DNA from: a virus
Direction: 5' to 3' (one strand)
IMG/VR virus record: IMGVR_UViG_3300008448_000024
Coordinates: 1-64,000 of that record
DNA length: 64,000 nt
Shown in pieces: positions 18,797 through 27,349 of this stretch. The position numbers were made by a program, and so were the translations under genes. Below the pieces are notes generated by a model, which did no database searches, was not told the DNA's origin, and saw only the letters and a list, made by a program, of their open reading frames with translations. Positions within the stretch are counted from its first letter, which is position 1. The number at the start of each line of letters is the position of its first letter.

Positions 18797-18977
18797 AGTC
18801 AGGTGGCGGAATGTTAACAACCCCGTTCTAGTTGTAAAAATAATGTGGTTAGAATCCACTACGGGGTTAATGTTAACTTGGTAGACGCTACAATTACTGG
18901 GATAAAGGAGATGATGATTAACGAATTCCCTTTTATGATTTCACATTATCTTACAGGTTCGAACCCTGTCCTGACTA
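18797..18977 (+). ncRNA. tRNA-like element E9 with nested minihelix in the D-loop
   Basis: The outer frame is the usual AGTCAGG/CCTGACT with T arm ACAGG/CCTGT. The D arm is split as GGCGGAAT ... TTGGTAGACGC by a 65-nt insertion (18813-18877) bounded by GTTAAC at both ends. Inside is a tRNA-minihelix-like hairpin: ACCCCGT/ACGGGGT stacked on GTGG TTAGAAT CCAC, the latter shaped like a T arm. The same insertion start occurs in truncated E2. Confidence 0.6.
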
Positions 18978-19118
18978 CGCAGAAATCCAACACAACGACG
19001 TGGTAGCCCATGCTCTTAGGAGATAGGGGAGAGTAACCGTGAAGTGATAGTAGCGGAGCATATCCTAAACAAGTATTAGGAACGTGCGATGGTTGACAGC
19101 TTGGAAAGACAGGCAAAC
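18978..19118 (+). ncRNA. Structured RNA between E9 and E10
   Basis: Helices ATGCTC/GAGCAT and TCCTAA/TTAGGA are clear, with CTCT/AGAG inside the first. No gene fits. It may be part of the E10 transcript. Confidence 0.45.
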
Positions 19119-19263
19119 AGTCAGGTGGCGAAATTGGTAGACGCTTAAAACATGATAAGGTTAACGTGGTGTAAATAGTCGAAGAGTTTATCCTTCACAT
19201 ACTAAAAAGTATCCATTTATGTTATACAGATTAACCATACAGGTTCGAACCCTGTCCTGACTA
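19119..19263 (+). ncRNA. tRNA-like element E10
   Basis: AGTCAGG/CCTGACT acceptor, D arm GGCGAAATTGGTAGACGC, T arm ACAGG/CCTGT. The 145-nt length comes from a long centre closed by GGTTAA/TTAACC. No standard anticodon arm. The 19277 gene follows after 13 nt. Confidence 0.6.
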
Positions 19264-19276
19264 CAAAAATAAAGTT

Positions 19277-19555
19277 ATGGCAAAGAAAAAAAAGTTAGAA
19301 TATTGGTTTTGCGAAATAGGTCCAATTGATAGAAGCAAAGTACCTTTTGGTGGTGATGGACCACTAAGAATGGCTATTCAAAATAAGTTTATAGAAATGT
19401 TTGATGAACAAGCTGAAAGATGTAGTAGTGGTTGGGGATTAACAGAAGAGATGAAAACTCGATTAGACATTATTTCTCTTTTACCTATAACAGACCCAAG
19501 CGGAAAGATATTAAAACAGATTGATGAAATTTTGAGTAAAAGGCCAATGAATTAA
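19277..19555 (+). CDS. Hypothetical protein, 92 aa
   Basis: MAKKKKLEYWFCEIGPIDRS with two central helices. Cassette between elements E10 and E11. Not recognised. Confidence 0.6.
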   Translation: MAKKKKLEYWFCEIGPIDRSKVPFGGDGPLRMAIQNKFIEMFDEQAERCSSGWGLTEEMKTRLDIISLLPITDPSGKILKQIDEILSKRPMN

Positions 19556-19561
19556 TAAAAT

Positions 19562-19684
19562 AGTCAGGTGGCGAAAAAGTAGACGCAGAGGGACTAACAT
19601 CCTCGGAATAGGGAGTATAAAAAAGTTAGGTTATAGGTACCGCACACTCCAGACCCCGTACAGGTTCGAATCCTGTCCTGACTG
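19562..19684 (+). ncRNA. tRNA-like element E11
   Basis: AGTCAGG/CCTGACT acceptor, degenerate D arm (GGCGAAAAAGTAGACGC), T arm ACAGG/CCTGT. In the centre GAGG/CCTC closes a 9-nt loop GACTAACAT. It ends 16 nt before the next small gene. Confidence 0.6.
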
Positions 19685-19700
19685 CTAAATAATAAGAATT

Positions 19701-19799
19701 ATGAAAGAAAAACTATTAAATGAAATTAAAAATTTCAACGTAATCGAATTTGGTATCAAATTAGTTTTTGTCTATCTATTAATTCAAATCCTGTCCTAA
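19701..19799 (+). CDS. Small hydrophobic peptide ending in a tRNA-like remnant, 32 aa
   Basis: MKEKLLNEIKNFNVIEFGIK followed by a hydrophobic stretch ending LLIQILS. The last codons (AATTCAAATCCTGTCCTAA) are the T arm and acceptor of a decayed AGTCAGG element, so the gene end seems to have been created from it. Weak coding evidence. Confidence 0.35.
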   Translation: MKEKLLNEIKNFNVIEFGIKLVFVYLLIQILS

Positions 19800-19803
19800 C
19801 TAC
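19782..19803 (+). repeat. 3' remnant of a tRNA-like element (E12)
   Basis: ATTCAAATCCTGTCCTAACT matches the 3' end of the E elements (GTTCGAATCCTGTCCTGACT) with three changes. The 5' part is missing. Confidence 0.6.
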
Positions 19804-19817
19804 TTAAAATAAAATAT

Positions 19818-20006
19818 ATGATAACACTACTAACAATTTTATTTATTTGGTTCTTTATATCAGTTTATAGAATCTATAAAAAATCAGGTTCATGGAAAGA
19901 ATTCGCTGTAACACAATCTACAGTTATTGATTTTCTAGGATTTATACTAGGTATATATGTAATAGTTGGCTTATTTGTATATATTTGCGTACTGTACCTA
20001 CCATAA
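19818..20006 (+). CDS. Small membrane protein, 62 aa
   Basis: Two hydrophobic segments (LLTILFIWFFISVYRIY and LGFILGIYVIVGLFVYICVL) separated by a polar loop. A two-helix membrane protein of unknown role; the size would suit a holin-like or exclusion protein, but nothing specific supports either. Confidence 0.6.
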   Translation: MITLLTILFIWFFISVYRIYKKSGSWKEFAVTQSTVIDFLGFILGIYVIVGLFVYICVLYLP

Positions 20007-20052
20007 TCTTTTTACCTTAATTTATATTTTAAGACAAACTAATTATAATCAT

Positions 20053-20295
20053 ATGGCAGAATTTAGTAAACAATGGTGTGAAGCTTTCGATCCTGAAGGC
20101 ATGCCTTGGGATTTTGATATATTAGATGAGTTTAATAAATTAAGTGAATCGATGTATATACCATTTATTTGTGAAGGGTATGGATTTATCGCTATAGGTA
20201 AATTTGAAGGAAAATGCAAATTAGCATTACCTAATTTCGAAGATAACACTGTACAATGGGTTAATTACGATGATGTAGTAAAAACAACAAATTAG
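20053..20295 (+). CDS. Small acidic protein, 80 aa
   Basis: MAEFSKQWCEAFDPEGMPWD. The start at 20053 is used because the upstream in-frame extension overlaps the previous membrane gene. It ends 13 nt before the tmRNA. Not recognised. Confidence 0.6.
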   Translation: MAEFSKQWCEAFDPEGMPWDFDILDEFNKLSESMYIPFICEGYGFIAIGKFEGKCKLALPNFEDNTVQWVNYDDVVKTTN

Positions 20296-20308
20296 ATCTT
20301 TTAAATAT

Positions 20309-26335: not shown

Positions 26336-26404
26336 TGCGTATGGTCCGGCGACCGACATTGGCTCATATCCGATGTTAGATTAGTTCGACACTAATATAC
26401 GCAA
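26336..26404 (+). tRNA. tRNA (CAT) with truncated D arm
   Basis: TGCGTAT/ATACGCA acceptor, anticodon loop CTCATAT on ATTGG/CCGAT, T arm ATTAG/CTAAT. The D arm is only GGTC CGGC GACC with no GG in the loop, so 69 nt in total. Candidate tRNA-Ile2 or Met. Confidence 0.75.
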
Positions 26405-26407
26405 CAG

Positions 26408-26497
26408 GTGTTGTTCTCTTGAGAAAGGAATTGAAATGTTGAGAGAAGGAACTTAAAACAATAGTAGCCTTACAACACAGAGGACTTCTCATCCTCT
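26408..26497 (+). ncRNA. Repeated structured RNA, copy 2
   Basis: GTGTTGT/ACAACAC ends and the 3' hairpin AGAGGA/TCCTCT with loop CTTCTCA match copy 1 at 11636-11734, including the internal GAGAAAGGAAT. The two copies lie 15 kb apart. Confidence 0.6.
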
Positions 26498-26500
26498 ATT

Positions 26501-26572
26501 GCTCGGTTAGTTCAATCGGTAGAACGCTAGATTTGTAATCTTGAAACAACAGTTCGACTCTGTTACTGAGCT
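26501..26572 (+). tRNA. tRNA-Thr(TGT)
   Basis: GCTCGGT/ACTGAGC acceptor, anticodon loop TTTGTAA on CTAGA/TCTTG (T-T mismatch at 28:42), T arm AACAG/CTGTT. Confidence 0.85.
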
Positions 26573-26577
26573 CAAAT

Positions 26578-26701
26578 AGTCAGGTGGCGCAATTGGCTAG
26601 ACGCTAAGTAGTAGAAATACAATGTGAGATGTAGATACCCATAAAGGCCACATGGGGAACAGATATAAAACATCGTATAGGTTCGAATCCTGTCCTGACT
26701 A
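26578..26701 (+). ncRNA. tRNA-like element E13
   Basis: AGTCAGG/CCTGACT acceptor, D arm GGCGCAATTGGCTAGACGC, T arm ATAGG/CCTGT. The 124-nt element has a centre with GATGT/ACATC enclosing CCCAT/ATGGG. It is the only complete E element inside the main tRNA array. Confidence 0.6.
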
Positions 26702-26921
26702 CAATGAGTAAGAGGTACTCAGAAGTCTTTCATCCAAGACTCATTTAACAATGGATGGGGATAAAAAATTTCCACCGAAGGAATTTCGATTCGGATAAAG
26801 GGTAGCAAAGTTCTGCACCTCCGACGTAAAGAACTGACTTTTTATCGGGGATGCCCAGCAGGTTTTTCAAATAGTAAAAACCGATACGACTACTCATAGA
26901 AAATCTCGCTATGGGGAAAAT
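26702..26921 (+). ncRNA. Highly structured RNA, about 210 nt
   Basis: A series of clean stems: GAGTA/TACTC, AGTCTT/AAGACT, GATAAAAA with TTTTTATC, CCGAA/TTCGG, AGTTCT/AGAACT, GGTTTTT/AAAAACC and CATAG/CTATG. Such density of perfect helices in AT-rich DNA points to a functional RNA. Class unknown. Confidence 0.6.
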
Positions 26922-26994
26922 GCGGAATTAGCTCATTTGGTAGAGCGCCGTCCTTCCAAGTCGGAGGCAGCCAGTTCGAGCCTGGCATTCCGCT
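26922..26994 (+). tRNA. tRNA-Gly(TCC)
   Basis: GCGGAAT/ATTCCGC acceptor, anticodon loop CTTCCAA on CCGTC/GTCGG (T-T mismatch at 30:40), T arm GCCAG/CTGGC. Confidence 0.9.
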
Positions 26995-27002
26995 CAAAAA
27001 CA

Positions 27003-27109
27003 AGCTAGTTGGCGTAATCGGGAATGAATACCGACATTAGTTAACGCCCTGACCGGAATAGCATTCCTTAATCTGTCGGGAGATGGGAGTGTGAATCTCT
27101 CACTAGCTT
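27003..27109 (+). tRNA. Class II tRNA-like gene with hairpins in the D and anticodon loops
   Basis: AGCTAGT/ACTAGCT acceptor. The D stem GGCGT/ACGCC holds a 28-nt loop with its own CGG/CCG hairpin. The anticodon stem CCTGAC/GTCGGG holds a hairpin GGAAT/ATTCC beside TTAATCT. The T arm is GGGAG/CTCTC with loop TGTGAAT. If both hairpins were removed a Leu(TAA)-like tRNA would remain, but this is inference. Confidence 0.5.
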
Positions 27110-27114
27110 AATCT

Positions 27115-27186
27115 GGTCCGGTAGCTCAATGGAAGAGCAACAGCCTTCTAAGCTGTAGGTTAGTGGTTCGACCCCACTCCGGATCA
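27115..27186 (+). tRNA. tRNA-Arg(TCT)
   Basis: GGTCCGG/CCGGATC acceptor, anticodon loop CTTCTAA on ACAGC/GCTGT, T arm AGTGG/CCACT. Confidence 0.9.
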
Positions 27187-27194
27187 CTTAACAT

Positions 27195-27349
27195 TGTATC
27201 GTGGTGAAATGCGTACGCATGGCAGACACACCCACTCGTCTCGTGGGCGCTGATCACGAAATAGGTAATAGGATATGGATTGACCACACGCCGGCGACTT
27301 TGTCCTTTACTGAATCGCAGCATGGATGGTTCGACTCCTCCCGATACAG
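27195..27349 (+). ncRNA. tRNA-like RNA, 155 nt, with palindromic D-loop insertion
   Basis: TGTATCG/CGATACA acceptor. The D arm reads GGTGAAAT, then a hairpin GCGTACGC, then TGGCAGACACACC; without the hairpin it is a normal Leu-type arm. CCCAC/GTGGG with loop TCGTCTC follows. A long centre of about 90 nt precedes a weak T arm (GATGG, TTCGACT, CCTCC). Decoding ability is doubtful. Confidence 0.5.

Follow-up and report, generated by a model that had tools for sequence, protein, structure and literature searches.

A 64,000-nucleotide (nt) stretch of viral DNA (positions 1 to 64,000 of the virus record IMGVR_UViG_3300008448_000024, which comprises 94,274 bases; hereafter the window) carries, besides ordinary tRNAs, 11 intact tRNA-like elements (TLEs) that have an acceptor stem, a D-arm, and a T-arm in common. 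We propose that TLEs are probably modular phage tRNA-like RNAs, in which a constant frame holds interchangeable RNA domains at two places, the D-loop and the stretch between the D-arm and the T-arm, here called the body. The features established by our analysis are a fixed insertion site in the D-loop, covariation in the structure of the families examined, exchange of inserts and bodies as modules, replacement of interiors at the same locus, and a tRNA-like 3′ end. Within the window, the TLE 3′ block is nearly identical from element to element (GGTTCGAATCCTGTCCTGACT, with at most two differences; chance expectation, 0.00) and the 5′ block resembles AGTCAGGTGGCG, with bodies that are wholly different in length and sequence. 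TLEs share with elongator tRNAs the 7-bp acceptor stem, T-arm, and D-arm, but not the anticodon arm with a 7-nt loop and U33; most window TLEs have no conventional anticodon arm.

The D-loop insertion is best seen in the TLE named E9 (18797 to 18978; E9, E2, the elements at 27195 and 21719, and the ten further TLEs of the window all lie on the plus strand), whose acceptor stem is formed by 18797-18803 and 18970-18976. The element reads AGTCAGGTGGCGGAA, a 68-nt insert, and GGTAGACGC, the last of these (18880 to 18888) containing G18G19 and the 3′ strand of the D-stem and serving as the fixed right border of the insert. The insert itself (18812 to 18879) has an outer stem GTTAACA/TGTTAAC, an inner stem AACCCCG/CGGGGTT, and a nested T-arm-like hairpin GTGG-TTAGAAT-CCAC; in the minimum-energy fold, the acceptor stem, D-stem, and T-arm are kept and the insert forms a separate hairpin domain. 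Both the layout and the fold thus bear out the first-pass annotation of this sequence, which had placed the insert just before G18G19. Its proposal that a second element, E2 (6672 to 6717), is related to E9 and includes the start of the insert also holds: because E2 agrees with the opening 46 nt of E9 at 40 positions and diverges beyond, we regard it as a truncated 46-nt 5′ relic of an E9-type element, made of the 5′ frame and the first part of the insert. The same is true of the D-loop hairpin reported before GG in the element at 27195 to 27349, where GCGTACGC (27211 to 27218) lies between GGTGAAAT and ATGG; this element belongs to a conserved, related family with another acceptor stem, found in 27 viral stretches and showing covariation in its acceptor and T stems. 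A fourth candidate, the tRNA-like gene at 21719 to 21848, may contain a 56-nt D-loop insert, judging from sequence and fold: 21735-21790 is readable as an insert between AAT and GG, but AAGTTT-AAT-AAACTT pairs too. The only relative found for it was an identical phage, no independent one, and an empty-site scan returned a single match that is no tRNA gene. The likeness of the inserts to a stretch of the tmRNA proved coincidental, as TCAGGTGGTGGA is the 3′ strand of a hairpin belonging to the tmRNA; relatives keep this hairpin with changed pairs (CCTGAT/ATCAGG versus CTTGAT/ATCAAG), and homology of the inserts to the tmRNA was rejected.

Viral contigs were scanned for the TLE frame with 12 to 42 nt (first scan) or 43 to 73 nt (second scan) between GGCGGAA and GGTAGACGC. 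An insert before G18G19 was present in at least 120 viral stretches in the first scan and in 22 in the second (at least 142 together). The possibility that relatives carry inserts at scattered positions or as random expansions was examined with mirror control scans for the same frame with an insert after G18G19, which yielded 2 and 5 stretches, respectively. By inspection, just one of these seven (locus L265) is genuine; L190 is a before-G18 insert, and in the other five the D-arm is intact and a further GACGC occurs by chance. As at least 120 plus 22 inserts stand before G18G19 against a single genuine one after it, the use of one D-loop position is not due to chance; the fixed site survived, and random expansion was rejected. 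When the E9 insert core was searched alone, without the frame, it was found in 8 viral stretches, each time (8 of 8) at this position of the D-loop. Among the loci retrieved, there are 83 distinct insert sequences of 17 to 73 nt, a few of the longest of which may be chance second matches. Altogether, the fixed-site insertion is real and far wider than the window. The idea that a common site is used in unrelated tRNAs stands as to the single site but not as to the hosts, which mostly belong to one TLE family with the same frame and different bodies. In tRNA numbering, the inserts lie after residues 16/17 and before G18, in the D-loop's alpha region, the length of which naturally differs among tRNAs; an insert there leaves A14, R15, G18, and G19 available for the elbow.

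D-loop inserts are nevertheless a minority. In a sample of 142 elements anchored on the 3′ end, five were flagged for an insert, of which three were genuine by eye (L045, L091, and L107) and two had a normal D-loop (L017 and L018), with L020 and L058 missed by the parser; since so few in this sample are genuine, we place the share of TLEs with inserts at a few per cent. Among 126 elements with the consensus 5′ end, 12 were flagged late, 6 of these being genuine by eye.

The structure of the inserts is conserved as their sequences change. In an alignment of 27 hairpin inserts (of 28; L008:329-355, likely a false call, was omitted), 98.1% of cells are paired and 47 are double-change cells, compared to 12.1 in shuffled alignments, with none of 500 shuffles as high. 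The 12 distinct E9-type inserts keep both the inner stem and the nested T-arm-like hairpin, with 14 double-change cells versus 4.1 shuffled; the number of pair types is no higher than in shuffles. For the 27195 family, of which 23 of 24 collected members were aligned (L032, with a longer insert, was omitted), the acceptor, D, anticodon-position, and T stems are paired in 100% of cells, double-change cells number 27 against 5.1 shuffled, and four of the seven acceptor pairs have changed on both sides. TLE RNAs look to be under selection for structure. The 27195-type D-loop hairpin mostly remains self-complementary despite sequence change, reading GCGTACGC in the window and TGTGCACA, GGATATATCC, GCCTAGGC, and GTAGCTAC among the relatives L272-L295, with L289 as an exception; 10 of 16 distinct inserts of this type contain a palindrome of at least 8 nt (shuffled mean, 0.52; maximum, 4). 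These palindromes hint that the 27195-type RNA may form dimers, a lead only, because the null consisted of shuffled letters and not of hairpin-keeping shuffles.

To describe modularity, 328 bodies and 102 inserts were clustered, giving 245 body clusters, which may be over-split, and 27 insert clusters, two of which (L017 and L039) are false calls; 38 of 368 elements were left unparsed. The contig that holds L262 and L283 comes from the same phage as the window, and the two were not treated as separate observations. At the one site, about 25 unrelated families of insert are present, and 11 of the 12 multi-member insert clusters occur on at least two body clusters, the hairpin family being present on 29 and the E9 insert family, which other phages carry on other bodies, on 9. 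Viewed from the side of the bodies, 26 clusters, of which one is an artefact, were seen with different inserts or with none. Individual loci illustrate each kind of exchange. L207 and L235 have flanks that are 95.9% (1,499 nt) and 97.3% (587 nt) identical, the same body, and T stems differing by one compensated pair, yet their inserts of 31 and 32 nt are unrelated and bounded exactly by GGAA and GGTAGACGC. Between L165 and L186, the insert and most of the flanking sequence are kept and the body is different; between L008 and L029, the flanks are nearly identical and the entire interior differs. In L031/L139 and L008/L159, the body is the same, with an insert in one locus and none in the other. 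Under a strict rule of orthology, i.e., both flanks of at least 120 nt at 80% identity or more, 70 distinct pairs of orthologous elements, falling into 39 locus groups, were obtained; 29 of the pairs, from 5 of the groups, have unrelated interiors. Among pairs with flanks less than 99% identical, the interior was replaced in 28 of 34.

At least 119 viral stretches contain the exact TLE 3′ end, compared with only 6 contigs, all from metagenome-assembled genomes, in a bacterial/archaeal collection of 84,980 species. Of 40 TLE-family records of at least 100 kb, 36 have this 3′ end (with at most two mismatches) in 1 to 11 copies per record; as a control, the reversed pattern was found in 0 of the 40. 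A megablast search of the cultured-phage collection with 18500-27500 gave no match; the E9 query had no match over most of its length, the best among the matches listed being 27 nt (E, 0.2), and the query with the TLE at 7281 gave partial matches only, covering at most 39% of it among the matches listed, many of which are tRNA-Leu genes. TLEs are intergenic, 3 of 368 lying within an open reading frame (ORF) of at least 100 amino acids (aa), and 280 of 331 share their strand with the next downstream ORF of at least 60 aa. When TLEs were located by the 5′ end alone, the T-arm and the acceptor partner were found downstream in 87 of 101; 85 of these 87 have the discriminator followed by C, as do 640 of the 702 ARAGORN tRNAs of the same loci that were compared for a terminal C. 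This rule, common to both, suggests that the ends of TLEs are processed as those of tRNAs are. One locus (L008:280-3500) has a minus-strand cluster of TLE and tRNA genes of about 3.2 kb, with no long ORF on that strand.

We envisage the constant frame, i.e., the acceptor stem, the D-stem with G18G19, the T-arm, and the discriminator plus C, as forming what in a tRNA is the elbow and the upper half, a fold that would probably give the transcript defined and stable ends through the host enzymes that mature tRNAs, presumably RNase P and tRNase Z. Variable RNA bodies would stand in place of the anticodon arm, and the D-loop alpha position would act as a second plug-in site for independent RNA hairpin domains, permissive because an insert there keeps A14, R15, G18, and G19 available for elbow contacts. 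Domains at both sites may be replaced by recombination between frames, within or between phages, through homologous recombination or gene conversion; since bodies are exchanged as well as inserts, recombination inside the conserved frame suffices as an account. Our guess is that the swappable domains bind host factors or act as decoys for them, perhaps in counter-defence, and that rapid replacement of the interior with retention of the frame fits an arms race. A bolder form, which we put forward tentatively and consider rather doubtful, is that two-site tRNA-framed cassettes with dedicated domain swapping supply small RNAs that change fast and are perhaps directed at the defences of the host or at competing phages, as an RNA counterpart of antigenic variation.

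Several observations weigh against the modular interpretation. In the AAAGAG insert family (n = 7), 100% of cells are paired but covariation is weak, with 19 of 500 shuffles as high, and 14 of the 101 5′-anchored insert elements have no recognised 3′ partner. The replaced interiors are confined to 5 of the 39 locus groups, one group of ten loci holding five interiors. Ordinary tRNAs used as a control showed replacement in 0 of 107 pairs, but only 7 of these have flanks less than 99% identical, and the contrast with TLEs is weak for that reason. Finally, the homology blocks able to carry a D-loop swap measure 15 and 9 nt, short for homologous recombination of the ordinary kind.

An alternative, favored by the first-pass annotation, is that each insert is a small mobile DNA element that targets a specific site, in the D-loop of tRNAs, and jumps into it. 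The use of a single site, the recurrence of the E9 insert on at least 7 bodies and at this site only when searched alone, and the pairs L031/L139 and L008/L159, which share a body with and without an insert, are all consistent with this idea, and the accompanying claim that the insert is mobile or copied is right in that inserts have been copied between different frames. Transposon or intron status, however, does not follow: some 25 unrelated families of 17 to 73 nt occupy one site, none has coding capacity (a transposase, integrase, or nuclease in the insert is ruled out by size), replacement also affects the bodies, at the other site, and the inserts are conserved in structure at the RNA level. 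We consider a site-specific element unlikely.

YrlA, a bacterial Y RNA, is tRNA-like, and TLEs could be phage relatives of such Y RNAs, the ligands of the Ro60/TROVE protein. The window does encode a TROVE/Ro60-like protein (29702 to 31243), TROVE was found in 5 of the 40 large TLE records (another kind of search gave 73 of 50,697 for phage records), and a tRNA-like partner of TROVE is mentioned in one report (PMC7824862). Against this, 35 of the 40 records have no TROVE match (many may be fragments), and one of the five positive records is a near-identical phage. No stem common to the bodies was noticed as a possible Ro-binding site, no model of one having been built, and the Rfam matches at the elements include no Y RNA, likewise without a dedicated model. 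This kinship thus seems quite improbable.

Removal of the inserts as introns after transcription would have a precedent in Lak phages, which are reported to carry tRNA introns, one of them maybe encoding a tRNA (PMC6784885), comparable to the T-arm nested in the E9 insert; in the window, a group I intron also lies within a tRNA-Leu. The inserts, however, are far below the size of group I or II ribozymes, Rfam gave no match to an intron at the window elements or at 17 further loci, the latter giving tRNA, tRNA-Sec, and tmRNA matches only, and removal would restore no working tRNA, because the bodies have no anticodon arm. Intron or ribozyme identity was rejected on insert size and the Rfam results, and we hold excision to be very unlikely. 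That TLEs are tRNA pseudogenes in decay, with D-loops that have expanded at random, as the truncation of E2 and the want of a normal anticodon arm in most elements might suggest, is hardly credible, since it is already contradicted by the covariation and position tests, i.e., compensatory changes in acceptor, T, and insert stems and recurrence of insert families at one position, and by the survival of an intact frame at loci where the interior has been replaced.

Besides E9, the intact TLEs of the window, all without a D-loop insert, lie at 762 to 835, 6999 to 7098 (with a second T-arm-like stretch within the body), 7281 to 7377, 7658 to 7756, 7996 to 8128, 11739 to 11822, 18602 to 18681, 19119 to 19263, 19562 to 19684, and 26578 to 26701. 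ARAGORN made 27 tRNA calls in the window; it left the anticodon undefined for the TLEs at 762 and 7658 and called the one at 18602 tRNA-Pro, the elements having not each been excluded as elongator tRNAs one by one. E9 and the TLEs at 7281, 19119, 19562, and 26578 were reported by neither ARAGORN nor Rfam, and the same is true of a gene at 24360 to 24452 that resembles tRNA-Ser(GCU) by eye. The TLE at 19562 is followed by a tiny ORF and then by a truncated TLE 3′ end (19782 to 19803). Rfam also identified a tmRNA, a GOLLD RNA, and a group I intron. The intron, with an HNH endonuclease ORF, splits a tRNA-Leu(UAA)-like gene (27448 to 28230); a cREC_REC (PF20274) protein (28151 to 28648) adjoins the tRNA cluster; and the GOLLD RNA is followed directly by the TROVE/Ro60-like gene (29192 to 31243). 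A possible permuted tRNA at 25840 to 25940 has its 3′ half (GGTGGTTCGATTCCATCTCTCCCAAC) about 15 nt upstream of the matching 5′ half (TTGGGAGATAGCTCAGTGGTAGAGCAC), and the whole stretch occurs elsewhere only in a near-identical phage.

Searches of open-licence PubMed Central papers listed none that describes such elements. If the modular reading is correct, a class of structured RNA not described before is present in more than 100 viral contigs, probably in many more, and its domains are swapped like cassettes within a conserved tRNA-like shell. TLEs would then offer a natural example of where a tRNA tolerates extra domains and a source of new RNA domains, and may account for some phage tRNA calls of undetermined type.

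Among known systems, the YrlA Y RNAs with Ro60/Rsr resemble TLEs in being noncoding with a tRNA-like fold; unlike them, TLEs have open and intact acceptor ends, a hypervariable interior, and up to 11 copies per record, and most TLE records have no detected TROVE gene to match the YrlA/Ro60 pairing. Like TLEs, tmRNA joins a tRNA-like end to a large non-tRNA interior; the sole match of the Rfam tmRNA model in the window is at 20309 to 20803, with none at TLEs. Engineered tRNA scaffolds, made for the expression and processing of RNAs, are at least partially processed with an altered D-loop or anticodon and, unlike TLEs, are artificial and eukaryotic; a tRNA frame without D-loop and anticodon was partly processed in human cells, with impaired 5′ processing on complete removal of the D-loop (PMC6445147). 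The nearest published system is that of the tRNA introns of Lak megaphages, one possibly encoding a tRNA, which are present in some genomes and absent from others and which, like TLEs, are phage tRNA-type genes carrying inserted sequence; these are putative real tRNAs with few introns whose excision is assumed (PMC6784885). TLEs, unlike the Lak genes, have no conventional anticodon arm and use one D-loop site, at which some 25 insert families are exchanged between bodies.

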